Of a stretch of DNA of 64,000 nucleotides, positions 5,793 to 56,766 are shown piece after piece. Each line of letters opens with the position of its first letter. Within the stretch, counting starts at the first letter, position 1. A program made the position numbers and the translations under genes. The stretch covers positions 1 to 64,000 of the forward strand of contig SBEH01000001.1 in the NCBI GenBank assembly GCA_009668945.1. Reading direction: 5' to 3'. Source of the stretch: Actinomycetota bacterium (GTDB lineage: Bacteria > Actinomycetota > Coriobacteriia > Anaerosomatales > Anaerosomataceae). The notes below the pieces were generated by a model. The model saw nothing but the letters and a program-made list of their open reading frames with translations. It searched no databases and was not told the origin of the DNA.

Positions 5793-5849
5793 TCCCGCAC
5801 CTCCGCCCTCAGTCTATCGTTGCGCCTCGAACGCTCCTACACTCACTGC

Positions 5850-7049: not shown

Positions 7050-7063
7050 GCGCCGCCCGCGAA

Positions 7064-10000
7064 CTACGCGGAGGAGGCCGCGCCCACCTCGTCGCACTCC
7101 TCTGCTCCCGCGCCTCCGAGCGTCGGCCCTAGCGGCCCGGCGCCGACACCGCGACGCAGGCGAACCAGCTGTCGGCCTTTGTCCCGCACGACGTAGGGCT
7201 CGATCCTGTCGGCGATGAGCGCGATCCCGCGCTGGCAGTTGTTCTGCAGTACGCCCTCCACGAGGTATGCGCGGTTCTTCACGATCACGTCGCCGAAGCG
7301 GTTCAGTGCATCTTCGAAGACGACGACGTCTATGAGCCCGGTGGGGTCCTCCAGCGTGAGGAAGCACGTGCGCTTTCCCGAGCGTGTCCGTGGCGTCTGC
7401 GCGCGCTCGCGCACCCCGCACACCCGGATGCGCGCGCGGTCCTCACATGCGGGCAGGTCGCGCGCCCACGTGACGCCGCGCCGCTCGAGGTCGGCACGAG
7501 CGAGTGCCAGGGGGTGCGCGGTGATCGCGAGCCCCAGGCACTCGAGCTCCGCGGAGACTCGCATCGCGGGCGTCCAGCCAGAGACGTGACCGGCGTCGAC
7601 AGGCCCCCGCGCACGCGCAGGTGCGATCAGCAGCGTGTCGTCACCGGCCACGCCCTGCCTGGCGATGACCGCCTTGAGCTCCGGTAGGAGCGCGAGCATC
7701 TCATCGCGCGTGGGAGGCCTGCCGGCATCGGTCACCCCCAGGCCGTCGAGAGCCCCGATGCGTATGAGGCTCCGTGCGGCTGGCTCCTCGGCGCGCGTCC
7801 TCTTGAGGAAGTCAGCGAGATCGGCGAACGGACGCACCGCCCTCTCGGCTTCCAGGACCCGAAGCAGACGCGAGGTCATCTCGAGCAGGCCCCCGAGGCC
7901 GACGCGCACTGCGCCCCCGTCCCGCTCGACGGTGAACTCCGCCGAGGATGCGTTCACGTGCGGCGGCAGCACGTCGATATCGTGGCGCCGCACGTCGTCG
8001 AGCACGAGACGCGGGCTGTAGAAGCCCATCGGCTCGTTGTTCAAGATCGCCGAGGCGAACTCGGCCGGAAAGTACGTCTTGAGCCACGCGGTGGCGTACG
8101 AGACGACCGCGAAGCACGCCGCATGCGCCTTGCAGAAGCCGTAGGCCGCAAAGCCCTCGAGCTGCCGGAAGACCTCCTCGGCCACCTCCTCCGAGGAGCC
8201 AAGCCCGCACGCCCGCTCCACGAAGTGCTTGCGGATCGCCTCCATCGCCTCGCGGCTGCGGCCCTTGGTCATCGCGCGGCGCAAGCTATCGGCCTCGGCG
8301 AGCGAGAACCCAGCTACCGCCTGGGCCACTTGCAGCACCTGCTCCTGGTAGACGATGACGCCATAGCTTGTGCGCAGCACCTCGCCCATGCCCGGATGCG
8401 GCACGGTGACCGGCTCAAGCCCGTGGCGGCGTCGTATGAAGGGCACGATCATCTCGGCCTCGAGCGGACCGGGGCGGAAGAGCGAGATTGCAGCGATGAT
8501 GTCCTCGAAGTCGCGCTCCTGTAAGCGCATCGCGAGATTGCGCTGGCCGCTGCTCTCGAGCTGGAACATCCCGACGGTGTCGGCAGATGCGATCTGTGCG
8601 TAGACACGCGGATCGTCGTGCGGCAACTCGAACGGTTCGGGAACGGCATCTTCGCCCACACGTTCGCGCGCCATGCGCACTGCATCCGTGATGGCCGAGT
8701 GCGTGCGCAAGCCTAGGATGTCCATCTTCACCAGCCCGAGCGCCTCGATGTCGTCCTTGTCGTACTGCGAGACCACCACGCCCTTGGCCGCCCACTGAAG
8801 CGGCATCCACGTCTCGATGGGCTCGCGCGTGATGATGAACCCGCCGAGGTGCGTGCCCAGGTGCATCGGCGTGTGGTTGAGCTCACTCGCAAGTTCAACG
8901 AGAAGGCGGTGCTCGGGCTGAAGCAGCGGATGGTCGCGGCACTCGGGATAGGTCGCGAGAACCTCAGGCAGATGGTGAGAGCTCACCCACGGGAGGTATC
9001 GCGAAAGCGCATTCACCTCCTCGGGCGCGTGTCCGAGCGCTTTAGCCGCCGTCCGCACCGCACTGCGCGCGGTCATCGTATTGACGGTGGCCACCATCGC
9101 TACATGCTCGTGCCCGAAACGCTCGTAGATGTATGCGATCACCTCGTCGCGGCGTCGCGAGTCGAAGTCCACATCGATATCCGGCATCTGCCGCCGCTCG
9201 GGGTTCAAGAAGCGCTCGAAGAGCAACTCGTGCGCAATCGGATCTGCGTCCGTGATGCCGAGGACGTAGGTGACGATCGAGTCTCCAGCGCTCCCCCGCC
9301 CGCTGCAGCGGATATCGCGCGACTTCGCGAAGTCCACGATGTCCTTCACGGTGAGGAAGTACTCCGGAAAGCCCAGGTCCTGGATCACCGAGAGCTCGTA
9401 CTGCAGGCGCCGGACCGCTTCGGGCGTGACCGGACGGTACCGCTGCTCAAGCCCATGCCAGGCGGCCTTCGAGAGCACCGAGTACGCGGTCTCTCCGGGC
9501 GGCACATAGGCTGCCGGGAAGTGGAACTCGCCCAGACCGAGATCGAGGTTGCAGCGCTCGGCTATCTCGAGCGTGGCGTCGCAGGCCTGCGGCACATCGG
9601 CGAACAGGTGCCGCATCTCTCCGGCGGGCTTGAGCCACAGCTCCGCGTTCTGGCGCTCGTACGGTCCCGGGAGCCCCGTGCGCGCGCCCGCCGAAGCGAG
9701 CACGTCATGGAGGCGGAACTGCGCCCGTTCGGCGTAGTGGACGTTGTTGGTGGCGACCACCGGCAGACCGCACCGCGCGGCCAGCGCGGTGAGCACCGAG
9801 ACGTAGCGTGGACTGTCAGGCGTCATGAGATGCATGATCTCGACGTAGAAGTCGCCGGGCGCAAAGCAGCGTGAAAGCCGCCTGAGTACACGCTCCGCAC
9901 GGCCGCCAAGACCGGCGAGTACCGCGGCGCCGGCCTCACCGCACGGGCAGCCCGACAAGCCGATCAGACCCTCGGAGCACTGCTCGAGATCGGCGATCGC

Positions 10001-10420
10001 GACCAACGAGGGATCATCTCCCGTACGCACGTGTGTGCGCGAAAGCAGCCGGCAGAGGTTGCGGTAACCGGTGATGTCCTTCGCAAGCAGCGTGAGGTGG
10101 AACCCGGCGCCCGCAGCACGGCCGAAGCCCACTGGAGCCGAGAGTGGAAGGCGCGCATCCGGCGGCAGATCGCCCTCGATGGCGTCCCCGCCCTCCAAAC
10201 CTGCGGCCTCAAGCACGATTTCCGCACCGACGATCGGTTTGATGCCCGCAGCCTGCGCTGCGCGGTAAAAGCGGATAGCGCCGTACAAGCCCTGGTGATC
10301 GGTGAGCGCAAGCGCGCTCATGCCATATGCGCCGGCGCGTTCGAGCAGCGCAGCGGGCGATGCCGCGCCATCCATTAAGCTGAAATGCGAATGCGTGTGA
10401 AGGTGCACGAAGCCCGCCAT
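7064..10420 (-). CDS. DNA polymerase III alpha subunit, probably the error-prone DnaE2-like type
   Basis: The product is 1118 aa. It begins with a PHP domain (FVHLHTHSHFSLMDGA). The C-family palm has catalytic PDIDVDF near residue 412 and KMDILGL near 562. Tandem HhH and an OB fold (about 990-1080, RTCFLTLEDPTGLIDVVVF) follow. The length and the absence of a long C-terminal tail fit DnaE2/ImuC or a short DnaE1. I favour an accessory, damage-inducible polymerase because it is the second gene of a unit starting with DUF6504 and preceded by a LexA box at 10913-10938, and dinB is adjacent. No imuA or imuB gene is present here, so this is not a canonical mutasome cassette. Confidence 0.85.
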   Translation of the reverse strand: MAGFVHLHTHSHFSLMDGAASPAALLERAGAYGMSALALTDHQGLYGAIRFYRAAQAAGIKPIVGAEIVLEAAGLEGGDAIEGDLPPDARLPLSAPVGFGRAAGAGFHLTLLAKDITGYRNLCRLLSRTHVRTGDDPSLVAIADLEQCSEGLIGLSGCPCGEAGAAVLAGLGGRAERVLRRLSRCFAPGDFYVEIMHLMTPDSPRYVSVLTALAARCGLPVVATNNVHYAERAQFRLHDVLASAGARTGLPGPYERQNAELWLKPAGEMRHLFADVPQACDATLEIAERCNLDLGLGEFHFPAAYVPPGETAYSVLSKAAWHGLEQRYRPVTPEAVRRLQYELSVIQDLGFPEYFLTVKDIVDFAKSRDIRCSGRGSAGDSIVTYVLGITDADPIAHELLFERFLNPERRQMPDIDVDFDSRRRDEVIAYIYERFGHEHVAMVATVNTMTARSAVRTAAKALGHAPEEVNALSRYLPWVSSHHLPEVLATYPECRDHPLLQPEHRLLVELASELNHTPMHLGTHLGGFIITREPIETWMPLQWAAKGVVVSQYDKDDIEALGLVKMDILGLRTHSAITDAVRMARERVGEDAVPEPFELPHDDPRVYAQIASADTVGMFQLESSGQRNLAMRLQERDFEDIIAAISLFRPGPLEAEMIVPFIRRRHGLEPVTVPHPGMGEVLRTSYGVIVYQEQVLQVAQAVAGFSLAEADSLRRAMTKGRSREAMEAIRKHFVERACGLGSSEEVAEEVFRQLEGFAAYGFCKAHAACFAVVSYATAWLKTYFPAEFASAILNNEPMGFYSPRLVLDDVRRHDIDVLPPHVNASSAEFTVERDGGAVRVGLGGLLEMTSRLLRVLEAERAVRPFADLADFLKRTRAEEPAARSLIRIGALDGLGVTDAGRPPTRDEMLALLPELKAVIARQGVAGDDTLLIAPARARGPVDAGHVSGWTPAMRVSAELECLGLAITAHPLALARADLERRGVTWARDLPACEDRARIRVCGVRERAQTPRTRSGKRTCFLTLEDPTGLIDVVVFEDALNRFGDVIVKNRAYLVEGVLQNNCQRGIALIADRIEPYVVRDKGRQLVRLRRGVGAGPLGPTLGGAGAEECDEVGAASSA

Positions 10421-10427
10421 GGCCGCT

Positions 10428-10844
10428 CTAATCGACCACGCCGACGAGGAGCCAACGGTCCTCGAGACGATCGTATGCGAGGTCGTAGAGCCCGCCGCGC
10501 GTAAGCACGCGGTAGCAGCGACGGCTCAACCGGCGCCTCGGGTCCCACCATGAACGCTCGACCGCCCACGCCTGGACGATCGCGTCCACCACGTAGCGCC
10601 GGCGGTCGAAGACAAACGAGCGAGGTGCTCCACGTCCGGCATCCCAGACGACCTCGATCTCACGCTCGTGACGCTTCCCGGCAAACCCGGATGTCGGAAA
10701 CGTGAGATCGGAGGCCCGGGCTACCCACGGGCTCTTCAGGAGCTCCAGGATGACCGGCGCGCGCGTATCGGTCGCTGTGAGCAGGTCGAGGGAGTCCCCG
10801 GTTCTTCGGGGGTCGAAAGCCTTGATCGCACGGTTGCGGCCCAT
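10428..10844 (-). CDS. DUF6504-like protein, partner of the damage-inducible polymerase
   Basis: The product is 138 aa. The C-terminal 75 residues have the pattern seen in actinobacterial DUF6504: a basic strand (RSFVFDRRRYVVDAIVQAW), a Trp-rich stretch (ERSWWDPRRR) and a tyrosine-rich end (CYRVLTRGGLYDLAYD). Its biochemical role is unknown. In actinobacteria such proteins are found beside dnaE2 or Y-family polymerase genes. The stop lies 7 nt before the polymerase start, so the two are co-transcribed. The LexA operator lies 69 bp upstream of its ATG. The family assignment is from memory of the pattern. Confidence 0.7.
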   Translation of the reverse strand: MGRNRAIKAFDPRRTGDSLDLLTATDTRAPVILELLKSPWVARASDLTFPTSGFAGKRHEREIEVVWDAGRGAPRSFVFDRRRYVVDAIVQAWAVERSWWDPRRRLSRRCYRVLTRGGLYDLAYDRLEDRWLLVGVVD

Positions 10845-10912
10845 GGGAGACGTCCTTCGAGTGTGAGGCCGGGTGCGGAAGGAGCTTCAGGGGTCCACAC
10901 CCGGCAAGTCGA

Positions 10913-10938
10913 GTATATCGAACGTATGTTCGATATAC
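10913..10938. promoter_or_regulatory. LexA operator (SOS box) upstream of DUF6504-dnaE
   Basis: The core TCGAACGTATGTTCGA matches the Gram-positive LexA consensus CGAAC-N4-GTTCG exactly (core 10919-10932). The symmetry extends further: 11-bp perfect arms from GTATATCGAAC to GTTCGATATAC around a 4-bp centre. It sits upstream of the DUF6504-dnaE unit on the minus strand and beyond the feoB stop, so the natural target is the polymerase unit. It implies repression by LexA and induction after DNA damage. Confidence 0.9.
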
Positions 10939-11003
10939 AAGACGTCTCTGACACCTCGCCGACGCGCCTCCTGCGCATCCCAGACCCTGAGAGCGAACGG
11001 CTC

Positions 11004-13007
11004 TTATGCGCCGAATCCAACGAACGCAAGGACGCGCGCCACGAGTCCCGCGACGACGACCGAAACCACGACGCTTCCGACGATCACGGCGATCGCAGCG
11101 CGCAAGCCCTCGCGCCGCCAGTAGACCGCAACCGATGAGATGCATGGCAGAGCAATGGTGTTCACCAGCGCGAAGACCACCAGCGCGATCGGGCTCATGA
11201 TCTCGCTGATGCCGGTGGCATGACCGGTGGTGGCCGCCGCGAGTGCGATCAGCAGCTGGAGCGACAACTCCGCGCGCAGGAAGCCCACGATCAGCGTGAT
11301 GCCCGCAACAGTCGGGAGCCCCAGCCACCCGCCGATGAGCGGCTCGAGTGGTTCGCTCAGCTTGAACAGCCACCCGGTCTCGTACAGCCCGCCGAGGATG
11401 ATGCTCCCGGCCACGACGATCGGAGTGGCCACGAACAGGAACTCCCTGAACTGCACCCACGACTTCTCGACGATGCGTCTGAGCGATGGGCGCCGGAACC
11501 CGAACATCTCCATCACGAGGCCCTGGGAGTCGCCCGGAAGGATGCGCTCCAGCGCGAGCGCGATACCGACCCACAGTGCGAGCACTATCCCGAGAACCAT
11601 CAGCGCTGCCTGCCAGCCGATGAACGCGCCCACCGAGCCCAGTATCACGGCCGTGCGCGCGCTGCACGGGATGAACAGTACCATCGTCGAAGCGATCTGC
11701 CGCTCTCGCTTGGTACCGAGCTGACCGGCGGCCATCAATGCCGGCACGTTGCACCCTGCAGCTGCGATCAGTGGCACGATCGCGCGGCCGTGCATACCCA
11801 GACGATGCATCACGCGGTCGGTCAGGAACGCAAGCGAGTTCAGATACCCGCTGTCTTCCATCAGTCCAAGGATGATGTAGAACGTGAGGATGTACGGGAT
11901 TCCCACGCCCAGCGCGGCTCCCACACCGGAGTCCAGCCCCCAGAGCAGCACCTTCGCGGTCATGCCCTGCCCGACCACCGCGTGCACCGCAGCCTGGATA
12001 GTAGGCGATGCAAACGTACCCCACAGCGAGGCGAGGCCTGTCGCCAGCAGATTGCCCACGAAGAACAGGAAGCCGAATACCGACGCCGCGACGACTAGAA
12101 CGAGCGGGATCCCCGTAAGCGGCGAAGTCGTGAGCGCCCATAAGTCACGGGTGATGACATGCCTCGGCGCACTGGAGTGGGTCACGAAGTCCCGCGCGAG
12201 TCTGACAGCCAGCTCGTGGCGCTCACGCGCGAGATGCACCCCGGCGTCCTCGCCGAACCGGCTGCGCACTGCCGAGCGGACCGACAGCGCTGCCTCCAGC
12301 GCCTCGGCGTCCATCTTCTTCTCGCACGCGTTGGCGTTCTCCAGCGCCTCCAGCCCCTCGATACCGCACGCACACGTGTCGCGGTCGCGTACCGGGCACG
12401 CCTCCGCCAGCGGTGCCACAAGCGCCTCGAAGTCGGCACTGTACGATGCATGCGTCTGAGGACCGGTGCCGGCCACTGCGAAGGCCTGCGAGACCACCTC
12501 GCCGATTCCGAGACCCCGGCTCGCGGTGGTTGAGACGACCGGGCAGCCCATCGCCTCGGCCAACCCGGCGTGGTCGACGGTCAGCCCGGCGCGTGCGGCC
12601 TCGTCGGCAAGGTTCACTGCAAGCACGACGCCGAACCCAAGGTCCTGGACCGCGAGGGCCAGTGGCAGGTTGCGCGCAAGGGTGGATGCATCCACGACCA
12701 CGACGACTACATCCGGATGCAGCTCCTGAAGCGCGCGCCGTACGACCTGCTCGTCTTCCCCGGTGCCGGACAAGCCGTAGGTCCCGGGCAGGTCGATCAA
12801 GCCGATGGCATGCTCCCCGGCCTGCGCTGTTGCGCTGTGGACCTCCCGGGTCGTGCCCGGATAGTGCGCCGTGGAGACCCCTAGCCCCGTCATCGCATTG
12901 AAGAGTGTGGACTTCCCGACGTTCGGATTGCCGGCGAGTGCGATGACGATCCTGCCCTCCGGACGCGTGACGTTCTCGTTGCAGCTGGCGTCGTGACAGG
13001 ACTTCAC
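11004..13007 (-). CDS. feoB: Ferrous iron transport GTPase/permease
   Basis: The product is 667 aa. The N-terminal G domain carries G1 GNPNVGKST, G3 DLPGTYGLSG and a G4-like NLADEA. The C-terminal part is a polytopic membrane domain with gate repeats (CSARTAVILGS, CISSVAVYW). It takes up Fe(II), typical of anaerobes. No separate feoA gene is adjacent; the partner FeoA-type SH3 domain is instead fused to the regulator encoded just upstream. The ATG overlaps the regulator's stop by 4 bp, showing translational coupling. Expression is therefore probably autoregulated by iron or manganese through that regulator. Confidence 0.95.
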   Translation of the reverse strand: MKSCHDASCNENVTRPEGRIVIALAGNPNVGKSTLFNAMTGLGVSTAHYPGTTREVHSATAQAGEHAIGLIDLPGTYGLSGTGEDEQVVRRALQELHPDVVVVVVDASTLARNLPLALAVQDLGFGVVLAVNLADEAARAGLTVDHAGLAEAMGCPVVSTTASRGLGIGEVVSQAFAVAGTGPQTHASYSADFEALVAPLAEACPVRDRDTCACGIEGLEALENANACEKKMDAEALEAALSVRSAVRSRFGEDAGVHLARERHELAVRLARDFVTHSSAPRHVITRDLWALTTSPLTGIPLVLVVAASVFGFLFFVGNLLATGLASLWGTFASPTIQAAVHAVVGQGMTAKVLLWGLDSGVGAALGVGIPYILTFYIILGLMEDSGYLNSLAFLTDRVMHRLGMHGRAIVPLIAAAGCNVPALMAAGQLGTKRERQIASTMVLFIPCSARTAVILGSVGAFIGWQAALMVLGIVLALWVGIALALERILPGDSQGLVMEMFGFRRPSLRRIVEKSWVQFREFLFVATPIVVAGSIILGGLYETGWLFKLSEPLEPLIGGWLGLPTVAGITLIVGFLRAELSLQLLIALAAATTGHATGISEIMSPIALVVFALVNTIALPCISSVAVYWRREGLRAAIAVIVGSVVVSVVVAGLVARVLAFVGFGA

Positions 13008-13690
13008 CTGAGGATGCCCTTCCTGACCCGACGCTTCTCAGTCACCGGTTCGCTGACGACGATCTTCTCGGCGACGTCGCGGCCCAGCGCATACCGCGCC
13101 TCGCCCACTTCCACCAGCAGCGGGCCCTTGAACGGAGCCACATCGCAGACCCGGACATTCGTGCCCGGGAACATTCCGAGCGACGAGAGGTACGAGAGCA
13201 TCTCGCCCTGTTCGTCCTCGATGCGTACGATCTCCACTACGTCGCCCGGGCCGTTCTCGCATAGCGGAACCCCCTGGGCCTCCGCTATGGAACCGTCCGC
13301 CCCGGGGATCGGGTGACCGTGGGGACACACCGAGGGATTCTCAAGGAACTCCTGAAGTGCGCGCTGTACCCTCGGAGAGAGCGCGTGCTCGAGCTGGCAC
13401 GCTTCCTCATGGACCTCGTCCCAGCGCAGTCCCAGCACATCGACGAGGAATCGCTCCGCCAGGCGATGACGCCTGACGATGTCAAGCGCGGCCTGTCGAC
13501 CCGTCAGCGTGAGTTCGATCGACCCATCCGCCCGCTCGACCAGCCCGCTCGCCTGGAGCCTGCCCAGGGTAGCGGTGACCGTCGGTGGCGAGACATCCAT
13601 CGCCTCCGCCAGTTGACTAGGCCGTACCTGGCCCTTCTCACTCAGTTTGTAGATCGACTCGAGGTACTCTTCCATGGTCGCACTAGGCAT
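13004..13690 (-). CDS. DtxR/MntR-family metal-dependent repressor with C-terminal FeoA domain
   Basis: The product is 228 aa. Residues 1-60 are a winged helix (ATMEEYLESIYKL, RPSQLAEAMDVSPPTV). They are followed by the DtxR dimerisation/metal domain (HRLAERFLVDVLG, CQLEHALSP, CPHGHPIPG). The final 75 residues are an SH3-like FeoA domain (SSLGMFPGTNVRV, GEARYALGRDVAEKIVV). The family represses metal uptake genes when loaded with Fe(II) or Mn(II). The start at 13690 is preferred over 13729 because homology begins there and GAGTGAGG is upstream. It is the first gene of an operon with feoB. Confidence 0.9.
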   Translation of the reverse strand: MPSATMEEYLESIYKLSEKGQVRPSQLAEAMDVSPPTVTATLGRLQASGLVERADGSIELTLTGRQAALDIVRRHRLAERFLVDVLGLRWDEVHEEACQLEHALSPRVQRALQEFLENPSVCPHGHPIPGADGSIAEAQGVPLCENGPGDVVEIVRIEDEQGEMLSYLSSLGMFPGTNVRVCDVAPFKGPLLVEVGEARYALGRDVAEKIVVSEPVTEKRRVRKGILR

Positions 13691-13908
13691 GCCTGATACC
13701 TCACTCCCATACGCACGTGTCTGATACAAAGACGCTGCATGAGTGTATGGTACAGTATCCGCTTAGTGTACACAAACTCGATGTGCAGAGCGGGTAGCCG
13801 TTCGTCGTTGGCCATCGTCGCCGTGATGCCGTCCGTCCGACTCCTGCGACCGCTGACGCTCGCTTCCGTGCCGTTCAGCAACTACCTGATGATTCTTCAG
13901 ATTCCCTG

Positions 13909-13937
13909 TTGACGGCTCACGGAGAGTCTCGTAGAGT
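13909..13937 (+). promoter_or_regulatory. Sigma-70-like promoter of the 6S-like RNA
   Basis: A -35 TTGACG (13909-13914) and a -10 TAGAGT (13932-13937) are separated by exactly 17 bp on the plus strand. The predicted start is about 13944, which is also where the closing stem of the RNA begins. No coding gene follows on this strand. Confidence 0.65.
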
Positions 13938-13943
13938 GTGGTT

Positions 13944-14152
13944 GTCCCGAGAAGTCGGGCCGAGCGGAACCTGAAAGCCAGCGTACCAGTAGCTGCTCGA
14001 AGGGGTCCTCGCGGGAAGGGTTTGCGCAAGCTGACCGGTACCGTAGGGGTTCTCGAGAGTAAGAAATGGGAAGCTTGGGGACTAGGGATCACGCAGGCTG
14101 GGTTTCTCGGGACACCTGCATTCTAAGGGGGGCCGCCAGCGCGGCCCCCCTT
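13944..14152 (+). ncRNA. Free-standing structured RNA, candidate 6S RNA
   Basis: This lies in the 505-bp gene-free gap between the DtxR-type gene and queD. Its ends pair perfectly: GTCCCGAGAA (13944-13953) with TTCTCGGGAC (14104-14113). The helix continues inward with AACC/GGTT, AGCC/GGCT and GCGT/ACGC separated by small internal loops, leaving a large apical region. A good promoter sits at the 5' end and a GC-rich hairpin at 14127-14150 closes the 3' end. A rod-like RNA of about 170-200 nt with its own promoter is what 6S RNA looks like; 6S binds housekeeping RNA polymerase. I cannot confirm homology. tmRNA, RNase P and SRP signatures are absent. Confidence 0.55.
14127..14152 (+). terminator. 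GC-rich hairpin ending the 6S-like RNA
   Basis: A perfect 10-bp stem, GGGGGGCCGC with GCGGCCCCCC, encloses loop CAGC and is followed by only two T residues on the plus strand. The stem is strong but the U-tract is poor, so termination efficiency is uncertain. It could also stop queD transcripts arriving from the minus strand. Confidence 0.55.
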
Positions 14153-14195
14153 CACGAATCCCTGCTCATTCAACTTGGCTTCTCGACCGCGCCTG

Positions 14196-14567
14196 CTAGT
14201 CCCCCGGCCGGAACGTGAGCCTGGCGATCGGCGACTCCCAGACCGATACCTCGACGACTGCCACGCGGATTCCGACGCGCGCTGACAAACCCTCGAAGAC
14301 GTGGCGCGCCAGATTCTCGGCTGTGGGATTGATGCCGTCGAACGGCGACACGTCGTTGAGCAGGCAGTGATCCAACGGAGCAAGCACCGCGGCGAGGTCC
14401 TCCTTGAGCGTCTTGAAATCGTAGAGAATGCCGACCTCATCGAGGCTCGAACCGCGCACCACGACCTCCACGTCCCAGGTGTGTCCGTGAAGCCCACTGC
14501 ACTCGCCCGGATACCCGTGCAGTTGGTGAGCAGCGTCGAAATGCCCGCGGATCATCAGGTCGTACAT
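14196..14567 (-). CDS. queD: 6-carboxy-5,6,7,8-tetrahydropterin synthase (6-pyruvoyl-tetrahydropterin synthase family)
   Basis: The product is 123 aa, the family's normal size. Zinc-binding histidines appear in HFDAAHQL and LHGHTWDVEV, with the catalytic Cys in GECSGLHGH. PLDHCLLND and NPTAENLARHV are the family's later motifs. It makes the 7-deazaguanine precursor for queuosine from dihydroneopterin triphosphate. No other queuosine gene is in the window. The start has a purine-rich AGAGGGAGAGCC upstream. The gene is 15 bp downstream of the RNase H gene and ends close to the 6S-like RNA terminator. Confidence 0.9.
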   Translation of the reverse strand: MYDLMIRGHFDAAHQLHGYPGECSGLHGHTWDVEVVVRGSSLDEVGILYDFKTLKEDLAAVLAPLDHCLLNDVSPFDGINPTAENLARHVFEGLSARVGIRVAVVEVSVWESPIARLTFRPGD

Positions 14568-14582
14568 CGCGGCTCTCCCTCT

Positions 14583-15041
14583 CTAGAACAGGCGGCTTGA
14601 CTCACCATGCGGGGGCTGAGGTGCATCGCCGACCATGCACCGGCCATCCATCGCGGCGTTCGCAAGCGCGTCCGCCTCGGCGTTCTCCTCTCTCGGGACG
14701 TGAACAAACGCCACCTCGTCGAAACCTCTGCGAAGCCCCTGCGCGGCGGTGAACAGGGGTTTCAGCCCCTCGTTCTTCACGCGGTACTCGCCGCGAAGCT
14801 GCTTTACCACAAGCTCGCTGTCCGCCTTCACCACCAGACGCTTCGCGCCTGCGTCCAGCGCCGCCCGGAGGCCCCACAGGAGCGCCTCATACTCCGCCAC
14901 GTTGTTCGTCACCGAACCCAGGAACGCGCCCCCACGCGCCACGATCGAGCCGCTGGGTCCCCGCAGGACCATCCCCGCTCCTCCCGGCCCCGGGTTTCCG
15001 CGCGCGCCGCCGTCGGTGTGGACGATCCAGACGTCACTCAT
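14583..15041 (-). CDS. Ribonuclease HI family protein
   Basis: The product is 152 aa. It has the RNase H fold motifs HTDGGARGNPGPGG (first catalytic Asp), NNVAEYEALLWGL (Glu), VKADSELVVKQLRGEY (Asp) and a late ENAEADALANAAMD (Asp). It cleaves the RNA strand of RNA:DNA hybrids. The ATG at 15041 overlaps the preceding stop by 4 bp, and the longer upstream frame is only a shadow of the zinc-ribbon gene. The sequence is of the short RnhA-like type found in actinobacteria and archaea, lacking the basic handle. Confidence 0.9.
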   Translation of the reverse strand: MSDVWIVHTDGGARGNPGPGGAGMVLRGPSGSIVARGGAFLGSVTNNVAEYEALLWGLRAALDAGAKRLVVKADSELVVKQLRGEYRVKNEGLKPLFTAAQGLRRGFDEVAFVHVPREENAEADALANAAMDGRCMVGDAPQPPHGESSRLF

Positions 15042-15760
15042 CGGGAATCGCGCCCCGCCACAAGAAGCCGTCTGCAGTTCGGGCACTCGGCGATCGGCGG
15101 ACCTGCCTGGATCGCCTGCGCTTCGTGGGCGGGGATCGCCGTGCGGCACGCACTGCACAAATCACCGACAAGCTCGCCCACGGCGATTCCGTGCTTCGTC
15201 TCGCGCAGAGACTCGTACCTGGCGAGCAGCAAGGGTGTCAGGTCCCCCGCAACCCGCGCACGCGTCTCTTTCAGCCGCACGATCTCGGTCTGGAGCTCGC
15301 CTCCTTTGGCCTTGAACTCCTCGATGAGCACCCGCTCCTTCTCGTAGCCCTCGGCGAGTGCGGCTTCCACCTTCGCGAGCTGGGCGAGCCCCTCCTCTGC
15401 CTTCTCCATCAGCCCGATCTCGGCATGCTCGACCGCGTCCTTCTTCCGCCTCAGCGCATCGATCTCGCGGGTCAGGTTCTGAAGCTCCTTCGGGTTGGTG
15501 ACCTCGCCCGACATCACCTTCGCCTGCTCGGCGTCGATCTTGAGCTGAATCGACTCCGCTTCGTCGTTGGACCGGTTGACCAGCGCATCGCTCTTGCGGC
15601 AGTAGGCCTCAGCCCTGTCCTTGACCGCCTCGATCTCGCGCAAGCGTTTCCGAAGCTGGAGCACTGCGCGCTTCTCAGGCACTTCGTCCAGCTGCTTCTC
15701 CGCCCGTGCGATCGCTAGGTCCTGTTCAGCAAGCGCTAGCAGGGCTTCACCCTCGGACAT
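15038..15760 (-). CDS. Coiled-coil protein with C-terminal C4 zinc ribbon (DUF164/CT398 family)
   Basis: The product is 240 aa. Residues about 10-180 form a long coiled coil rich in Glu, Lys, Arg and Ala. The C-terminus has CSACRTAI (C-x2-C) and CPNCRRLLV (C-x2-C), a zinc ribbon. Members are often encoded next to Nif3-like and RNase H genes, as here, but the function is unresolved; roles in protein secretion or assembly have been proposed. The start at 15760 has GGAGGGATCGG just upstream and overlaps the end of the Nif3 gene by 14 bp. Confidence 0.85.
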   Translation of the reverse strand: MSEGEALLALAEQDLAIARAEKQLDEVPEKRAVLQLRKRLREIEAVKDRAEAYCRKSDALVNRSNDEAESIQLKIDAEQAKVMSGEVTNPKELQNLTREIDALRRKKDAVEHAEIGLMEKAEEGLAQLAKVEAALAEGYEKERVLIEEFKAKGGELQTEIVRLKETRARVAGDLTPLLLARYESLRETKHGIAVGELVGDLCSACRTAIPAHEAQAIQAGPPIAECPNCRRLLVAGRDSR

Positions 15761-16868
15761 CCGATCCCTCCACTGTCCACCAGCCGGTCTTGGGGGACTC
15801 CACGGTGACCTCGACGTGTTCGCGCACGCTTGACCGCACCGCCTCCGAAAGCACCGCGACCAGCGGCCACTCGGTGGCATCATGGCCGGCCTCTATCACC
15901 GCCAATCCCGCTGCAGCTGCAGCCAGGGCGTCATGATACCGCACCTCCCCGGCAACCAGCGTGTCCGCCTTGGCGACCGCGTCCCCGATCAATGACGACG
16001 CGGATCCGTTCGCCACGGCCACCCTGCCGGCAAGCTTCGAACCGTCACCCCAGACCCTGCAGCGGACACCGAGGGAATCCGAGACATGGGCGGCGAGCTC
16101 TGAGACGGTCGCTGACTCTCTCCACGTGCAGATCCGTCCCAGACGCGCCGCCCCGCGCGGACGCACGCCAGGCACGGCCACGATCACCGGCTCCTCGTAC
16201 GGGTGCGCGTCTCTGGCCGAGTCAAGGACGGCCTCCGCGCAAGCGGAAGGCGCAACCATCTCGATCCGCGACTCCGGCGCACCTTCTCGTCCGGCCGACG
16301 TCACGGGGCGTGCGCCAGCAAGCGGCGTGAACCGGCCGGAACCGTCCGAGATGAACGCGCAGTCCGTGTAGTCGCCAAGTCTCCCCGCACCGGTGGCAGC
16401 CATGGCCGCCACCACGCGGTCAACAGCATCCTTCGGCACGTAGGTCACAACGAGTACGACATCTTCGGTACCGCACTCGAGCGGCTCCAGGATCGAAAGG
16501 CCAAGAGCCTTCGGGAGTGCGTCGCCTCCGGATGGTGCGCGGTCGAGGTTGGTGTGGGCCGAGATCACAGCGATTCCCAGCCGCAGCGCGGCCTCCGGGG
16601 TACCGGCCGGCCCCCCAACGCGCTCAGCATGCTCCGGACACTCCAGGAACGGCGGGTGGTGCGTGACGAGCACGTTCGCCCCCATCTCCGCCGCCCGTTC
16701 CACCGACTCTGCAGTCGCGTCCAGCGTCACGAGGACGCCGGTCACCGCGGCACCGGCCCCTCCCACTACCAGACCTACGCGGTCCCAGTCCTCGGCCCAC
16801 TGTGCGGGGAACGCGCGATCGAGTGCTGACACCAGCCCGCCTACGGTCGGAGCAGCATCAGATGTCAC
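15747..16868 (-). CDS. Nif3-like dinuclear metal centre protein
   Basis: The product is 373 aa, the long bacterial form with an inserted PII-like domain. Motifs are EDWDRVGLVVG at the start, THHPPF, AHTNLDRAPSGG and, near the C-terminus, GEVRYHDALAAA and EAGHDATEW, which supply the two-metal site. It is annotated as GTP cyclohydrolase 1 type 2-like in databases, but the physiological substrate is uncertain. It overlaps both neighbours (PHP gene upstream by 11 bp, zinc-ribbon gene downstream by 14 bp), so these genes form one transcription unit. Confidence 0.9.
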   Translation of the reverse strand: MTSDAAPTVGGLVSALDRAFPAQWAEDWDRVGLVVGGAGAAVTGVLVTLDATAESVERAAEMGANVLVTHHPPFLECPEHAERVGGPAGTPEAALRLGIAVISAHTNLDRAPSGGDALPKALGLSILEPLECGTEDVVLVVTYVPKDAVDRVVAAMAATGAGRLGDYTDCAFISDGSGRFTPLAGARPVTSAGREGAPESRIEMVAPSACAEAVLDSARDAHPYEEPVIVAVPGVRPRGAARLGRICTWRESATVSELAAHVSDSLGVRCRVWGDGSKLAGRVAVANGSASSLIGDAVAKADTLVAGEVRYHDALAAAAAGLAVIEAGHDATEWPLVAVLSEAVRSSVREHVEVTVESPKTGWWTVEGSDVRG

Positions 16869-51880: not shown

Positions 51881-51910
51881 TGAAAGGCCCCGGCGGTTCA
51901 CCGAGGCCTT
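51881..51910 (-). terminator. Hairpin terminator, probably the displaced original terminator of tRNA-Val
   Basis: On the minus strand AAGGCCTCGG (51910-51901) pairs with CCGGGGCCTT (51893-51884) with one mismatch around a 7-nt loop, followed by a short T-run (CCTTTCACG). It begins 10 nt downstream, in minus-strand sense, of the 11-bp tRNA 3'-end copy at 51920-51930. It can also serve the small plus-strand gene that ends at 51873. Confidence 0.6.
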
Positions 51911-51919
51911 CGGAGTGTG

Positions 51920-51930
51920 TGGTGGGCGAT
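51920..51930. other. Proposed left attachment site (attL) of the integrative element
   Basis: The 11-mer TGGTGGGCGAT is identical to 56692-56702, that is, the complement of the tRNA-Val 3' acceptor strand plus ACCA. Flanking bases differ on both sides. A minus-strand terminator lies 10 nt to its left, exactly where a tRNA terminator would be expected. Short shared cores are usual for serine recombinases. Confidence 0.55.
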
Positions 51931-52164
51931 TCTTGAGGAGCTTCGAACGGCCTGAGTGCGGTAAGTCCTCAGGCCTCTGCGCGTGCCGCTCCAGGCGAGC
52001 ACGGATTCGGGCCATAGGACCCGGGGTCGAGGGTGGCAGTCGTGGACTCGTAGTGCGTGAGGCCGCCCCACTGAATTCATTACCGCAGAAGACACGCCGG
52101 AGGTCGCCTGGCGTATGCTGAGAGCAGATGGCAGGGTGACCGGCTCGACCTTGGGGGGGTCAAC

Positions 52165-52788
52165 ATGGATGACACTGGGACGCCAACTCAACCGGTTAGC
52201 GGCGACACCGGGACGCCGATTCAGCCCGTAGGTCCTTACCCCGGGACGCCGCCCGAGTCCAAGAGCAGCATGGCGGTGGCTGGGTGGGTCTGTTTCGGCA
52301 TCGGTCTGGGACTCATGTTCGCGTCGCTAGCCACGTTCTTCCTGTATGGACCTCTATTCCTCGTCGCGTTCGTGCTGAGCATCGTAGCAATGACCAAGGG
52401 CAAGGTGGGCGCGGGAATCGCATTGATGCTCTGCACCCTGATCATCCCTGGAGTGATGTGGTTCAGCCTCGTTGCGGTCAACATCGCTGAGGCAAATGAG
52501 GAGGAGCAGGCTGCTCTCGCCGCGCTAGAGTTTGAGGACCTCACCGGTGGACTCGACGGCAACTACATGACGTGCGAGGGCAAGGTTCGCAACCACGGCT
52601 CGACGACGGTGGAGTTCGTGAAGGTGGGCGTGGATTGGATAGGCGCTGGCGACATCGTCCTCGACACTGACTGGACCTACGTTGTGGGCGGTGAGGGCCT
52701 CGCTCCTGGGGCCGCCAAGTCCTTCAGTATCATGTCGCCCGCCGACAAGAAGATGCGGAAGTACCGCGCCTACATCATGGAGGACTGA
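52165..52788 (+). CDS. Membrane-anchored protein with a C-terminal FxLYD-like domain
   Basis: The product is 207 aa. The first 33 residues are Pro/Thr/Gly-rich (TGTPTQPVSGDTGTPIQPV). Two or three hydrophobic segments follow (about 34-60, 62-80 and 83-110), as in DUF4190-type proteins. After an acidic helix, the last 80 residues form a beta domain. It contains MTCEGKVRNHGSTTVEFVKV and a late KSFSIMSP, matching FxLYD/DUF4352-like extracellular modules. The start has a G-run ribosome site (GGGGGG). It lies inside the proposed element as cargo; function unknown. Confidence 0.75.
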   Translation: MDDTGTPTQPVSGDTGTPIQPVGPYPGTPPESKSSMAVAGWVCFGIGLGLMFASLATFFLYGPLFLVAFVLSIVAMTKGKVGAGIALMLCTLIIPGVMWFSLVAVNIAEANEEEQAALAALEFEDLTGGLDGNYMTCEGKVRNHGSTTVEFVKVGVDWIGAGDIVLDTDWTYVVGGEGLAPGAAKSFSIMSPADKKMRKYRAYIMED

Positions 52789-52982
52789 GCTTGCGGAAGC
52801 GGCGGACGTCGGTGCTCAGTTCCAAGCAGTCAGTAGTGACGACGATACCTGGACCCTATCTGTACTTCACAACTCCCGGCCAAAGGTTAGGGGTCGGTCG
52901 CGGTTGCCCGAACACAGCCCCTCACCTGCGGTTCTGATGGTAGGCCATTCTCTAGGGGCCTCGAACGACCTGACTGTTTGGC

Positions 52983-53010
52983 GCTTCGGCTGACGTGACC
53001 CGTCAGAAGC
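52983..53010 (-). other. SECIS-like hairpin just after the TGA of the stalk protein gene
   Basis: In minus-strand sense GCTTC-TGACG-GGTCA-CGTCA-GCC-GAAGC folds with outer and inner 5-bp stems, a 3-nt bulge on the 3' side and a 5-nt loop GGTCA. The loop starts 17 nt after the TGA at 53018-53020, about where the apical GGUCU loop lies in bacterial SECIS elements. It may equally be a plain terminator without a U-tract. Confidence 0.3.
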
Positions 53011-53017
53011 AGCGAGA

Positions 53018-53608
53018 TCAAGCGTCGTAGCCTTGCGCCTGAGCGGCCGAGAGGCTGATTGGAATCTTGCTCTGTGACAGGTAGCTGCAGCTTCCTCGGT
53101 GGTACTTGGCGCCGGTGTTCGTGATGTACACCGTCGTGCCGCTCGATGATGCAGAAGCCTTCGCCGCTGCTGCTGCCGCCTGAGCTGCCGCCTGAGCTGC
53201 CGCCTGTTCTGCGGCTGCCTTAGCAGCGGCCTCAGCGGCTGCTTGCTCTGCGGCTGCCTTAGCAGCGGCCTCGGCGGCTGCTTGCTCTGCGGCTGCCTGC
53301 TCCGCTGCGGCCTTGAGAGCACTGACAGCGGCGTCGGCGTCTGCAGCTGAGTCCTCAGGAATCGAAACGCCTCCTGGAATCTCCTGGGTGTCGCTCGTCG
53401 CGCTAGCGGTGCACGCCGACAGCAGGGCGGCCGCCAGCAGCAGGACAATCAACAGACACGGCAGGAGGCACCCGCCGCCAGTGACCATCCGACCGACTTT
53501 TCGTTGCCGACCCGACTTCGTGAGCGGAACGCCGATCGCGCGCGAGACCCGCGACTTAGCCGCACTCACTCCCAGGGCACGCTTCCACGAGAACCCGCCT
53601 CTGTTCAT
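53018..53608 (-). CDS. Secreted or lipid-anchored Ala-rich stalk protein, C-terminal domain cut at a TGA
   Basis: The product is 196 aa from the ATG at 53608. A basic N-terminal region leads to one hydrophobic segment (LLPCLLIVLLLAAALLSAC, lipobox-like LLSAC). A 75-residue Ala/Glu/Lys helical stalk follows, encoded by 39-bp tandem repeats. The C-terminal domain reads TVYITNTGAKYHRGSCSYLS then IPISLSAAQAQGYDA. In relatives this small module continues C-x2-C after GYTP; here the frame has TGA at the first Cys, then TCT CGC TGC TTC and a second TGA. It is either a nonsense change or a UxxC selenocysteine site. Confidence 0.7.
   Translation of the reverse strand: MNRGGFSWKRALGVSAAKSRVSRAIGVPLTKSGRQRKVGRMVTGGGCLLPCLLIVLLLAAALLSACTASATSDTQEIPGGVSIPEDSAADADAAVSALKAAAEQAAAEQAAAEAAAKAAAEQAAAEAAAKAAAEQAAAQAAAQAAAAAAKASASSSGTTVYITNTGAKYHRGSCSYLSQSKIPISLSAAQAQGYDA
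53207..53299. repeat. 39-bp tandem repeat, about 2.4 copies, in the stalk coding region
   Basis: Copies at 53207-53245 and 53246-53284 differ at only two positions, and a partial third copy runs to 53299. The unit encodes 13 residues of the Ala/Glu/Gln/Lys helix (minus strand). A shorter 12-bp repeat (GCCGCCTGAGCT) lies just to the left. Copy number is likely variable by slippage. Confidence 0.85.
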
Positions 53609-53784
53609 CCGTTCCCCCAGACCTTCAGTACGGCGGCAGGAGGTTGCTTCCACATTGGGGTCTTGACCTTGCGGCAGGTCCGACACGGTCGTGGGCGCCC
53701 TCTTGGAATCGGATCGCCTGGCCTGCGATTTTCCCCCAGCGTGTGAGCTTCCGTTGACAGCTTACCAGACCGACGATTCTGTGC

Positions 53785-53813
53785 TTCTCATACGAACAGG
53801 CGTTTGCTAGTAT
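53785..53813 (+). promoter_or_regulatory. Element promoter with a LexA-type operator in its spacer
   Basis: TTCTCA (53785-53790) and TAGTAT (53808-53813) are separated by exactly 17 bp. The spacer contains CGAACAGGCGTTTG (53793-53806), which fits the Gram-positive LexA pattern CGAAC-N4-GTTYG and differs from the chromosomal box arms at 10919-10932 by one base. LexA bound there would block RNA polymerase. It drives the leader RNA and, beyond the terminator, the rep/recombinase genes. Confidence 0.55.
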
Positions 53814-53819
53814 CGAAGA

Positions 53820-53964
53820 AGGCCCGGGTGCTGAAGCCGTCCTTGCAGCCCGGGGATGGATTAGTAAGGCCGCCGTGGTGATGATGGCCCGCTAGACGAG
53901 GGGGCCCGGTAGAGAAAAGGCCAGTGTAGAGATGAGGACAGGACGGCGAAGGTGCCGTCCTTTT
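53820..53964 (+). ncRNA. Structured leader / small RNA of the integrative element
   Basis: The 375-bp gap between the stalk gene and the 75-aa ORF contains no other gene. After the promoter comes a hairpin CCCGGGTGC...GCAGCCCGGG, a GGCC-rich middle and then the terminator at 53941-53964. The RNA would be about 140 nt, and the 75-aa ORF and rep follow. In pT181-type plasmids, which use related Rep proteins, rep is controlled by terminator formation in such a leader; applying this here is inference. I saw no clear antisense promoter. It contains TGAGGACAGGACG, also found in the RNA at 18566-18700. Confidence 0.5.
53941..53964 (+). terminator. Intrinsic terminator at the end of the element leader
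   Basis: GGACGGC (53941-53947) and GCCGTCC (53954-53960) form a perfect 7-bp stem around GAAGGT, followed directly by TTTT. It lies 20 bp before the 75-aa ORF, so it is placed to stop or attenuate transcription into the rep genes. Confidence 0.8.
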
Positions 53965-53983
53965 CATTTCTGCGAGGCCTCAG

Positions 53984-54211
53984 GTGTCAGGCTCTACTCA
54001 TGATTCGCAACAGGCGGTAGCGGGCGCAGCGCTTCGGGCAGCCCTCGAGGAGCGCGGATGCGCCCTCGAGGCGCACGAGGCGCGCGCACTGGCCGATGCG
54101 CTCATCGATCTCATCTGCTCAGGCGTGATCGTTGCCGACACCCCGCAGACTGCCCCCGCCTATAACATGGGCAGTCTGTTTGCATTTGAGGGGTCAGAGC
54201 ATGACTCCTAG
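53984..54211 (+). CDS. 75-aa ORF upstream of rep
   Basis: The GTG-initiated frame encodes a mostly helical, acidic protein with repeated Ala/Glu/Leu (VAGAALRAALEERG, HEARALADALIDLICSGVIV). It overlaps the rep start by 11 bp, which suggests translational coupling. I do not recognise it; it could be a copy-control or accessory protein. The ribosome site is weak (GAGGCCTCAG). Confidence 0.5.
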   Translation: MSGSTHDSQQAVAGAALRAALEERGCALEAHEARALADALIDLICSGVIVADTPQTAPAYNMGSLFAFEGSEHDS

Positions 54212-55246
54212 CGTCATTCGTTCGGCCTTCGATTGGTTCCAGGCCTCCTTCGTGGGGGACCTCAAGGCAGAGGCCGAGGCGCGGCTTTCTAAGCTCAAGG
54301 CACGCGCCCAGGAACGCAACACCCCTGAGCCCTTCGAGGTGGGGCTTATAGAGATGTTCGTTCAGCCCAAGGCGCACGGCTTCTGGACGTATGGGCTCAC
54401 GCATCCGGAGTTCGACATTCTGCTGGCCCCCAAGGCTCCTCCGGGCGCACCTAAGGCGAGCGTGAGGCTATCCGCGTTCGGATGCTCTCACAACAACGTT
54501 GCGGTCCTGTGGGAGGTCGCGCAGTGCTGCCTCGACGACCTCGGGGACTTCCTTCCGCAGTGTGTCAGCCGGGCTGACGTCGCTGTCGACTTTCAGGGAT
54601 GGGAGCCGACACCGGAGGATATGGCACAGGTCGTCTGTCCTGCGTCCTACCGCGCTACGCATGGCAGCGAAGCGGCTGTAGGGAGCTTCTACTTCGGCAA
54701 GGGGCAGATCGTCCTTCGCCTCTATGACAAGAGCACCGAGATCGTCTTGAAGAAGAAGGTCTGGGTTCCCGACGTGTGGAGGGCTACCGGGCGCTACGAT
54801 GCCAGGCTCCCAGTGTGGCGCGCGGAAGTCCAGTTCCGTACGCAAGTCCTCCAGGAGCTTGGTCTTACACACCTGCGGCCGTGCTCGCGAACCCCGGTGA
54901 GCTGCTCTCATACGGTCTTACGTGGGCGCAGATGCGGGTGCCGACAAATGACAAGACCAAGACTCGCTGGCCTGAGGACCCGCGCTGGACTCCCCTTCGC
55001 ACCGCTGCCTTCGATGGGATCGCTCTCGAGCGTACCGCGAGGGTCTCCGAGCTCATGAGACTCGACGATGCGGTCTCGCGCATGATCGGGCTCGTGGCGA
55101 CCGCTGCTGCTTATTACGAAACAAGCGACTTCATCCTCACTCTCGAACGCCTTCTTTGGGCAGCCGAGTTGCGTATGATTGAGAACAAGACCGACTTCGC
55201 TGCTCTCGCGGAGACCAAGCGCCGTCGCATCATGGGGAGGCTCTAG
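54201..55246 (+). pseudogene. Replication initiation factor (Rep_trans family), disrupted by a -1 frameshift
   Basis: The N-terminal frame from the ATG at 54201 has SRADVAVDFQGW, GSFYFGKGQIVLRLYDKSTEI and WRAEVQFRTQVLQELGL, the core of the Rep_trans (PF02486) plasmid/phage initiators. Near 54861-54880 (GGTCTTACACACCTGCGGCC) homology jumps to the -1 frame. There it continues PAAVLANPGELLSYGLTWAQ to the stop at 55246. One missing base, programmed slippage or a read error could explain it; no classic slippery heptamer is visible. The stop is 2 nt before the recombinase ATG. Confidence 0.75.
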
Positions 55247-55248
55247 AC

Positions 55249-56721
55249 ATGGCCCAGTGCGTGATCTACGCCCGTGTGAGCACCAAAGAGCAGCAATCCG
55301 AGGGCTACTCCATCCCGGCGCAACTGAAGGCTATGCGCGAGTTCTGCGCGCGTGAGAGCCTCTCCCCTGTCGCTGAGTTCGTGGAGGCCGAGTCCGCTGG
55401 CAAAGCGGGGCGCACACAGTTCGGGGCGATGGTCGCCTACCTCTCCGAGCATCCCGAGGTCGGCATCGTCGTGGCGCACAAGCTCGATCGCCTCTACCGC
55501 AACTTCCGCGACCAGATCACGCTTGAGGACCTGGGCATCCGCGCGCGCTATGTCGTCGGGGATATCCCCGACACTCCGCAGGGCGAGCTCCTGCGTGACG
55601 TGAACCTATCGGTCGCCAAGTTCTACCTCGGGAATCTGCGCGAAGAGGTCAAGAAGGGCATGGATGAGAAAGTCGCTCAGGGCGGCTGGCCTCACATGGC
55701 GCCGAGCGGTTATCTCAACGATCGGGCAACCCGCTCTTTGGTTGCCGATCCGGTGAGATCCCCGCTCGTGCGCTACGCCTTCGAGCGGTACGCGACAGGT
55801 GCGGTCTCGCTCTCGATGCTCGCAGGCGAGCTCAAGAGTCGCGGCTTCACCTCGCGTTCGGGTGCAGACGTCGGCCCTTCGGCGCTTCACCTGATGCTCA
55901 AGAATCCGATCTACTGCGGTCTTATCCGCTACAAGGGGAAGACCTATCCCGGCACGCATGAGCCGATCATCACGCCCGAGCTCTTCGCCGCAGTCCAGCG
56001 GGTCTTCGAGCCCAACCGAAACGGCGTGAAGGAGACCAAACACGTCTTCGCGCTTCGGGACTTCCTGACCTGCGGCGAGTGCGGCTGTAAGATCACCGCA
56101 GAACGCCAGCGCGGCCACGCCTACTACCGCTGTACGCACGGCAAGGGCAAAGGCACGTGTACGCAGGCGACCTACGCACGCGAAGAGAAGCTCTCCGGTG
56201 AGCTCGCGGCGATTCTTGCCGAGGTCGAGATCACGCCCGACATCATCGAAGCACTCGTGCGGGATTCGGATGCCTTCGACGCCCAAGCGACCACGAACAA
56301 CACGCAGGAGGCAGGACGTCTCAAGCGCGAGGTCGCTGCAGCCGACCAGCGGGCCTCACGCCTCCTTGAGGGGTTTCTCGACGGCGTGGTTACAGCTGAG
56401 GTCTACCACGCGAAAGCCGAAGAGCTCGCAGCCGCCAAGCGCACTCTCGAACGTTCGCTGCGCGAGCTCTCAACAGCTCAAGCGCAGCGAACTTCGCAGG
56501 TCAGGGCCCTCGCCGAGACCGCAGCAACCGCGCGCATCGCGTTTGAGGCCGCTGACACCGAGGGCAGGCGTCAGGTGCTCGCAACGGTGCTCTCGAACGC
56601 TACCGTCGAAGGGGGCTCCATAGCCTCCTACCAGCTAAAACGCCCCTTCGAGTATCTCCGGAGAGACCCCAAAGGGGCGTTCTATCATTCATGGTGGGCG
56701 ATACAAGATTTGAACTTGTGA
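55249..56721 (+). CDS. Large serine recombinase (site-specific integrase)
   Basis: The product is 490 aa. The N-terminal resolvase domain has VIYARVSTKEQ with the nucleophilic Ser at about 11 and HKLDRLYRN. A recombinase domain (about 150-260) and a zinc ribbon (CGECGCKI...YYRC...GTC, about 275-305) follow. A coiled coil (about 345-425) and a YQLKRPFEYL end complete it. The last nine residues WWAIQDLNL are encoded by the tRNA-Val antisense strand, so the C-terminus depends on the integration site. It is downstream of rep by 2 nt. Confidence 0.93.
   Translation: MAQCVIYARVSTKEQQSEGYSIPAQLKAMREFCARESLSPVAEFVEAESAGKAGRTQFGAMVAYLSEHPEVGIVVAHKLDRLYRNFRDQITLEDLGIRARYVVGDIPDTPQGELLRDVNLSVAKFYLGNLREEVKKGMDEKVAQGGWPHMAPSGYLNDRATRSLVADPVRSPLVRYAFERYATGAVSLSMLAGELKSRGFTSRSGADVGPSALHLMLKNPIYCGLIRYKGKTYPGTHEPIITPELFAAVQRVFEPNRNGVKETKHVFALRDFLTCGECGCKITAERQRGHAYYRCTHGKGKGTCTQATYAREEKLSGELAAILAEVEITPDIIEALVRDSDAFDAQATTNNTQEAGRLKREVAAADQRASRLLEGFLDGVVTAEVYHAKAEELAAAKRTLERSLRELSTAQAQRTSQVRALAETAATARIAFEAADTEGRRQVLATVLSNATVEGGSIASYQLKRPFEYLRRDPKGAFYHSWWAIQDLNL
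56635..56681 (-). terminator. Terminator for tRNA-Val lying inside the recombinase 3' end
   Basis: On the minus strand AACGCCCCTT (56681-56672) pairs with AAGGGGCGTT (56648-56639), followed by TTTAG. It begins 10 nt after the tRNA 3' end, the same spacing as the hairpin left of attL. The element therefore seems to supply a replacement terminator for the tRNA gene, and it is coding sequence for the recombinase at the same time. Confidence 0.7.
56692..56702. other. Proposed right attachment site (attR), 3' end of tRNA-Val
   Basis: This is the second copy of TGGTGGGCGAT. It is the complement of the last 11 nt of the tRNA including the encoded CCA, so integration leaves the tRNA gene intact. Confidence 0.55.
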
Positions 56722-56766
56722 CTTCTTCCGTGTGAAGGAAGCGCTCTCCCACTGAGCTAATCGCCC
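56692..56766 (-). tRNA. tRNA-Val (anticodon CAC)
   Basis: The minus strand starts GGGCGATTAGCTCAGTGGGA and folds into a standard 75-nt cloverleaf with CCA encoded. The acceptor stem is GGGCGAT/ATCGCCC, the D stem GCTC/GAGC, the anticodon stem CTTCC/GGAAG with loop TTCACAC (CAC, reading GUG) and the T arm ACAAG-TTCAAAT-CTTGT. It is the only tRNA in the window. The serine recombinase coding region overlaps its last 30 bp on the opposite strand. Confidence 0.97.

Follow-up and report, generated by a model that had tools for sequence, protein, structure and literature searches.

A compact element at a tRNA-Val gene with a predicted attachment site inside its serine recombinase gene

The use of tRNA genes as integration sites by serine recombinases has been called rare (PMC3218068). 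The actinomycete integrative and conjugative elements (AICEs) of the pSAM2/pMR2 type use the 3' end of tRNA genes and have a rolling-circle-type Rep (RepSA) and an integrase at one end, but a serine recombinase is found in a minority of them, such as the Mycobacterium AICEs in tRNA-Leu (PMC3218068). The phage phiRSM1 has a small rolling-circle genome and a serine recombinase that uses a 13-bp tRNA-Ser end (PMC4471427). In streptococcal integrative and conjugative elements (ICEs) that target rumA, the attachment site lies inside the serine integrase gene, and the integrase 3' end is exchanged with that of the target (PMC4701971). Finally, compact integrative mobilizable elements (IMEs) combine an integrase with a Rep_trans protein and mostly target the oriT of ICEs (PMC7563843). 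Here we analyzed positions 1 to 64,000 of contig SBEH01000001.1 from an Actinomycetota bacterium of the order Anaerosomatales (assembly GCA_009668945.1), referred to as the window. A stretch of 4.8 kb, starting at position 51920, shares features with all of these systems. We consider it very probable that this stretch is a mobile element that integrated at the end of a tRNA-Val gene, left the tRNA intact, has its attachment site (attP) inside the recombinase gene, swapped the tRNA terminator and can be a rolling-circle replicon, with scars and arrays of the same kind in related genomes.

Only two exact copies of the 11-mer TGGTGGGCGAT are present in the window, one starting at 51920 and the other at 56692. 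The right copy (56692–56702) is the 3' end, including the encoded CCA, of a tRNA-Val(CAC) gene called by ARAGORN at 56692–56766 on the minus strand, which is the integration target and is left intact. The original prediction had placed the element between these two repeats, and both the exact search and the tRNA call agree with it; a chance origin of the repeat was rejected on the basis of the exact-match search. The prediction had also taken a minus-strand hairpin to the left of the first copy as the native terminator of the tRNA. This too holds, as the hairpin at 51883–51911 has a terminator-like fold (-22.2 kcal/mol, z -2.8) and aligns with tRNA-proximal terminators in element-free relatives, where a terminator-like hairpin is found directly behind the tRNA. 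It thus represents the displaced original terminator, outside the left end of the element.

The locus can be recognized in many relatives by the markers galE, tRNA-Val(CAC) and an ABC-F ATPase gene. When related genomes were compared for an empty site, as the prediction had proposed, the element was absent from G003 of the same genus, where the order is galE, tRNA, 82 bp and ABC-F, and from G013, where the tRNA is followed by ≈190 bp, a homolog of the window protein orf161 and then ABC-F. The left flank of the window can be aligned up to 51919 with several element-free relatives (z 7.0 for G013, 5.5 for G004 and 5.0 for G012). An empty site in which 51919 is joined to 56692 would be consistent with this alignment and with the element-free loci. 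The tRNA-Val gene itself differs from its relatives in one T-stem pair, which is changed on both sides (ACAAG...CTTGT instead of ACAGG...CCTGT) so that pairing is preserved.

The right part of the element encodes a large serine recombinase of 490 aa (55249–56721, plus strand), as had been predicted. It contains the Resolvase, Recombinase and Zn-ribbon domains that define the large serine integrases and has its catalytic Ser11 within the motif ARVST. A tyrosine-integrase island was rejected, since the recombinase is of the serine type. The open reading frame (ORF) had been thought to end before the repeat. According to the ORF list it instead extends into the tRNA gene by 30 nt. Its last codons therefore lie there, and the hairpin described as a separate replacement terminator is in fact recombinase coding sequence. 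With attP inside the last codons, integration would exchange the C-terminus of the protein. In the circular form the tail would read WWAILEELRTA*, whereas the integrated form ends in WWAIQDLNL*, which is read from the antisense strand of the tRNA. The corresponding circular tail of G060 is WWAIVDALRTG*, comparable tails are found in most attP arms, and the conserved tail encoded by these arms is LRT[A/G/V]. The swapped tail could switch the integrase between its integrated and free states. Integration between attP and the tRNA site (attB) is the activity predicted for this recombinase from its sequence.

The left end of the element (51920–51948, plus strand) consists of the 11-bp repeat and the right arm of attP, and codes for the native tail in the circle. 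Well-preserved left ends in the family follow the pattern TGGTGGGCGAT-N10-CTTCGAAC with slight variation, whereas the T-arm motif of tRNA genes is nearer by 5 bp. We allowed gaps of 0–8 bp and used shuffled arms as control. The best gap was 5 bp in 13/13 well-preserved attP arms and in 14/18 overall, with ties shared, compared with 14% for the shuffled arms. Serine integrases recognize the difference between attP and attB from a 5-bp shift of a zinc-ribbon motif (PMC3783163), which is the offset seen in all 13 well-preserved arms. As the offset matches this rule, attP is predicted to resemble a tRNA whose T-loop motif is preceded by a 5-bp insert, and attB to comprise the CCA end, the acceptor stem and the T-arm of the tRNA gene. 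The crossover must lie within the shared repeat, and a search for mirror symmetry around the crossover center, and thus for a putative crossover dinucleotide, gave several candidates of similar merit.

The hairpin in the 3' end of the recombinase gene (56636–56684) represents both the attP left arm and the putative replacement terminator of the tRNA. On the tRNA strand it folds with -36.3 kcal/mol (z -5.5). The hairpin had been correctly noted, although not its position inside a gene. Across 29 aligned copies, 84% of the cells pair compared with 40–63% for slid partners, and there are 28 double changes compared with 13 in shuffles, a value reached by 0/500 shuffles. A covariance model of the hairpin stretch has matches in 35 of the 69 genomes of the order. 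Among 40 hairpin sites, 23 directly adjoin the called 3' end of a tRNA gene, four are at a tRNA-like sequence uncalled by ARAGORN, six before a clear attP arm and five before a degenerate arm, and two seem unrelated, the last of these classes being assigned by eye. Partial recombinase matches in relatives are nearly all C-terminal, and the hairpin, including its paired changes, remains directly behind the tRNA in scars without the rest of the recombinase (e.g., G008, G016, G024, and G004). The location of the sites at tRNA ends and the mostly C-terminal remnants point to retention of the terminator part after decay of the element, and the hairpin apparently serves the tRNA as a new site of transcription termination. 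Four loci (L022, L030, L092, and L105) show insertions in tandem that include internal scars, and the hairpin sites before attP arms suggest that such arrays arise from repeated insertion at the same tRNA end. One scar (L146, G056:C19, near 88410–88474) is followed by a tRNA-Val-like sequence uncalled by ARAGORN, which is possibly a broken tRNA gene left by integration.

Nine further full-length recombinases could be aligned with 49–78% identity, of which eight belong to seven other genomes of the order and the ninth to an assembly labeled Gaiellales. Each of them terminates within or at an opposite-strand tRNA gene for Val (GAC, CAC, TAC), Ile or Ala. A Rep homolog is found directly upstream of the recombinase in five relatives (G010, G060, G015, G050, and G044, the last with a decayed recombinase). 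Judging from these sequences, relatives of the same design and fossil copies are present at tRNA genes across the bacterial order. Of 29 further recombinase loci from a phylum-wide sample, 16 show overlap with a called tRNA gene, which is specific for Ala, Val, Pro, Met, Arg, Ile, Asn or Lys. The original remark on how seldom tRNA genes serve serine integrases is in line with the literature (PMC3218068), but the recombinase group described here uses them commonly. Searches of viral contigs, phages and plasmids gave only recombinases of <42% identity.

Upstream of the recombinase is the rep gene (54201–55246, plus strand). In the window it is split into two ORFs in different frames by a 1-nt shift at ≈54875–54881, while most relatives have a single ORF of ≈345–370 aa. 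A mutation or an assembly error is therefore more likely than a programmed frameshift, which was set aside. The Rep_trans initiator of the original prediction is recognizable in the intact relatives. Pfam Rep_trans matches 6/6 homologs, although weakly (best 3e-5; first member 0.0036, below the gathering score), and an AlphaFold model of the G015 Rep (pLDDT 87) has Geobacillus GstRep (4cij, E 4e-11) and RepDE (4cwc, 3e-7) as its top PDB matches. On the fold and profile matches of these intact relatives, Rep is assigned as a Rep_trans initiator of the pT181/GstRep type. In the Gaiellales element (L015 7084–7926) the position of rep is taken by a REP_ORF2-G2P (HUH) initiator (E 1.4e-15), and a weaker match to this family (0.0014) is found at the same position in G037 (L026 9973–10908). 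The use of two different types of rolling-circle initiator at the same position speaks for a replicon, while leaving room for a relaxase.

Several points weigh against the reading given above. Excision is inferred from the sequence, and no strain-level empty site was found, the element-free loci being those of related genomes. The conserved motif of the attP arm is also coding (LRT), and selection at the DNA and protein levels is therefore not fully separable. The frameshifted rep may leave the window copy unable to replicate, and the Rep_trans family also includes relaxases (PMC7563843). Finally, a degenerate attP-like arm inside the element (52938–52966, plus strand) allows another exact unit of movement. 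It is identical to the arm at 51920 in 31/40 positions, while the best match to that arm in nine other stretches of 4.7 kb is 25/40. The internal arm suggests composite ancestry, and together with the tandem insertions with internal scars at the four loci above it also fits two stacked elements, an older remnant at 51920–52937 and a newer element at 52938–56691, instead of one unit. We find this unlikely, though worth serious attention, since the outer arm is intact but the inner one is interrupted by a stop and carries mismatches, contrary to what their ages would predict, and since neither a recombinase scar nor a significant hairpin (z 0.03) is found to the left of 52938. With an intact outer and a degraded inner arm, a composite that is today bounded by 51920 and 56691 seems likelier than separate insertions stacked on one another.

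Three further explanations were weighed. Streptococcal IMEs contain Rep_trans relaxases (PMC7563843, PMC5704250), and the Rep_trans protein could accordingly be a MobT-like relaxase that nicks an oriT for transfer by a helper conjugation system, with replication as a secondary function. The nearest solved folds are, however, the plasmid replication initiators GstRep and RepDE, and the REP_ORF2-G2P-type proteins that replace rep in the same recombinase-tRNA layout (a strong match in L015 and a weak one in L026) fit a replication module; no coupling protein was identified, and no search aimed at oriT was made. An IME is thus distinctly less probable than an integrative replicon. The hairpin might be conserved purely for protein coding or integrase binding, given that it coincides with coding sequence and the attP left arm. 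Its retention, with paired changes, in scars that lack the other recombinase parts, at the place of the native terminator hairpin of element-free relatives, makes this quite improbable and argues for a tRNA terminator. A degenerate filamentous-phage (inovirus) prophage stripped of virion genes was considered because the best viral fold matches of the G015 Rep model are Inoviridae initiators and because phiRSM1 has a serine recombinase at tRNA-Ser (PMC4471427). We regard it as very improbable and rejected it, since neither a morphogenesis ATPase (Zot/pI) nor a coat-like gene was recognized in the window, the same holds for G010, G060 and G015, which are complete relatives, and several independent members of 4–7 kb are all without virion genes.

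The mobile element favored here would work as follows. Its attP, within the last codons of the recombinase gene, would have the hairpin-forming coding stretch as left arm and a sequence resembling the tRNA 3' end with 5 extra bp as right arm. The enzyme would recombine attP with the tRNA 3' end (attB) inside the shared TGGTGGGCGAT. This would keep the tRNA intact, place the recombinase 3' hairpin as its new terminator, move the old one to the far side of the element and replace the native recombinase tail with the tRNA-derived one. Once excised, the circle would use the Rep_trans initiator for its replication. During decay the terminator part would be kept because the tRNA needs a terminator, leaving a scar of ≈60 bp, and later elements could enter at the same tRNA end and build tandem arrays. 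In this model, the ends and genes of the element, the overlap, the conserved hairpin, the 5-bp spacing, the scars and the arrays rest on the sequence itself, and excision, replication, termination and the crossover dinucleotide are inferences. The original interpretation was partly borne out, but it had overlooked the overlap of ORF, attP and terminator, the scars left as fossils, the growth of tandem arrays and the composite make-up of the element.

The element also carries two cargo genes and a small ORF. One cargo gene (52165–52788, plus strand) encodes a membrane protein of 207 aa with an FxLYD domain according to the ORF list and domain search, and had no match in any other relative searched. 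The other (53018–53686, minus strand; match to phrog_14556) encodes 222 aa with a transmembrane segment, an Ala-rich linker and a small C-terminal domain. An ORF of 75 aa (53984–54211, plus strand) is conserved upstream of rep, with 53–56% identity in L023 and L040; copy control or an excision factor would be guesses at its function. The cargo varies between relatives, with an Mrr-type restriction endonuclease in G060 (L023 13785–15548) and a radical SAM/SPASM protein in G044 (L040 8958–10127). A Pfam-unmatched family of 246–313 aa and 23–31% identity is found upstream of rep in four relatives (L023 12144–13082, L025 11446–12237, L026 11295–12113, and L040 8128–8865) and is missing from the window element. 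As the original prediction had stated, no conjugation or virion genes were recognized among the window ORFs; this includes Tra genes of the FtsK/SpoIIIE type, which would be expected of an ICE or AICE. The compact integrative element of the original prediction is supported, but a satellite is not, as no virion- or helper-related gene was found.

Similar arrangements were seen outside the order. In Geobacter sp. AOG1 (L016) a Rep_trans-like gene is followed by a recombinase of 25% identity that overlaps tRNA-Asn. This locus (5565–15774) holds three serine recombinase genes in addition to the Rep_trans-like gene, and the tail of the middle recombinase is similar to that of the last (WLPLAD and WLPSAD); this resembles tandem integration, here in a different phylum. 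In two gut contigs labeled as phage, L111 (MT837677, 835–2403) and L112 (MT836653, 7574–9145), recombinases overlap tRNA-Leu and tRNA-Glu, respectively. The other genes of L111 look chromosomal; possibly this contig is a piece of a bacterial chromosome and not phage DNA.

We give about even chances to the broader proposal that these enzymes form a large, unrecognized serine integrase group dedicated to tRNA genes. In this group attP would be a coding mimic of the tRNA with a 5-bp insertion, one 3' end would serve as coding sequence, attachment arm and terminator, hosts would retain the terminator after the death of the element, and the swapped tail could be a state switch. The many tRNA-using serine integrases in this set stand against the view of their rarity in the literature, and the CCA end and T-arm suggest a route by which different tRNAs could be recognized. 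With predicted attB sites in most bacteria, the enzymes could be tested as integration tools. The scars would provide a fossil record of past integrations and a specific example of a mobile element that has died but left a regulatory part in use by host genes, while the tail swap would be a directly testable control mechanism for integrase activity.

We found no description in the open-licence literature of a serine integrase ORF that overlaps a tRNA gene with terminator replacement, although earlier reports may exist. Nor did the literature yield an integrase tail exchange with tRNA genes, in contrast to the rumA case, where the target is a protein gene and no tRNA terminator is replaced (PMC4701971). 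From phiRSM1 the window element differs in that the phage has a full virion gene set, a smaller resolvase-type recombinase and its attP between two ORFs (PMC4471427), and it does not share the preference of the Rep_trans IMEs for the oriT of ICEs. Compared with the AICEs, it has a Rep other than RepSA and no recognized FtsK/SpoIIIE-type Tra, is smaller than 7 kb and has a recombinase ORF that enters the tRNA gene. It belongs to a known kind of element, an integrative rolling-circle replicon with a serine integrase, in the form of a tRNA-targeting variant or family that seems to be new among the described systems.

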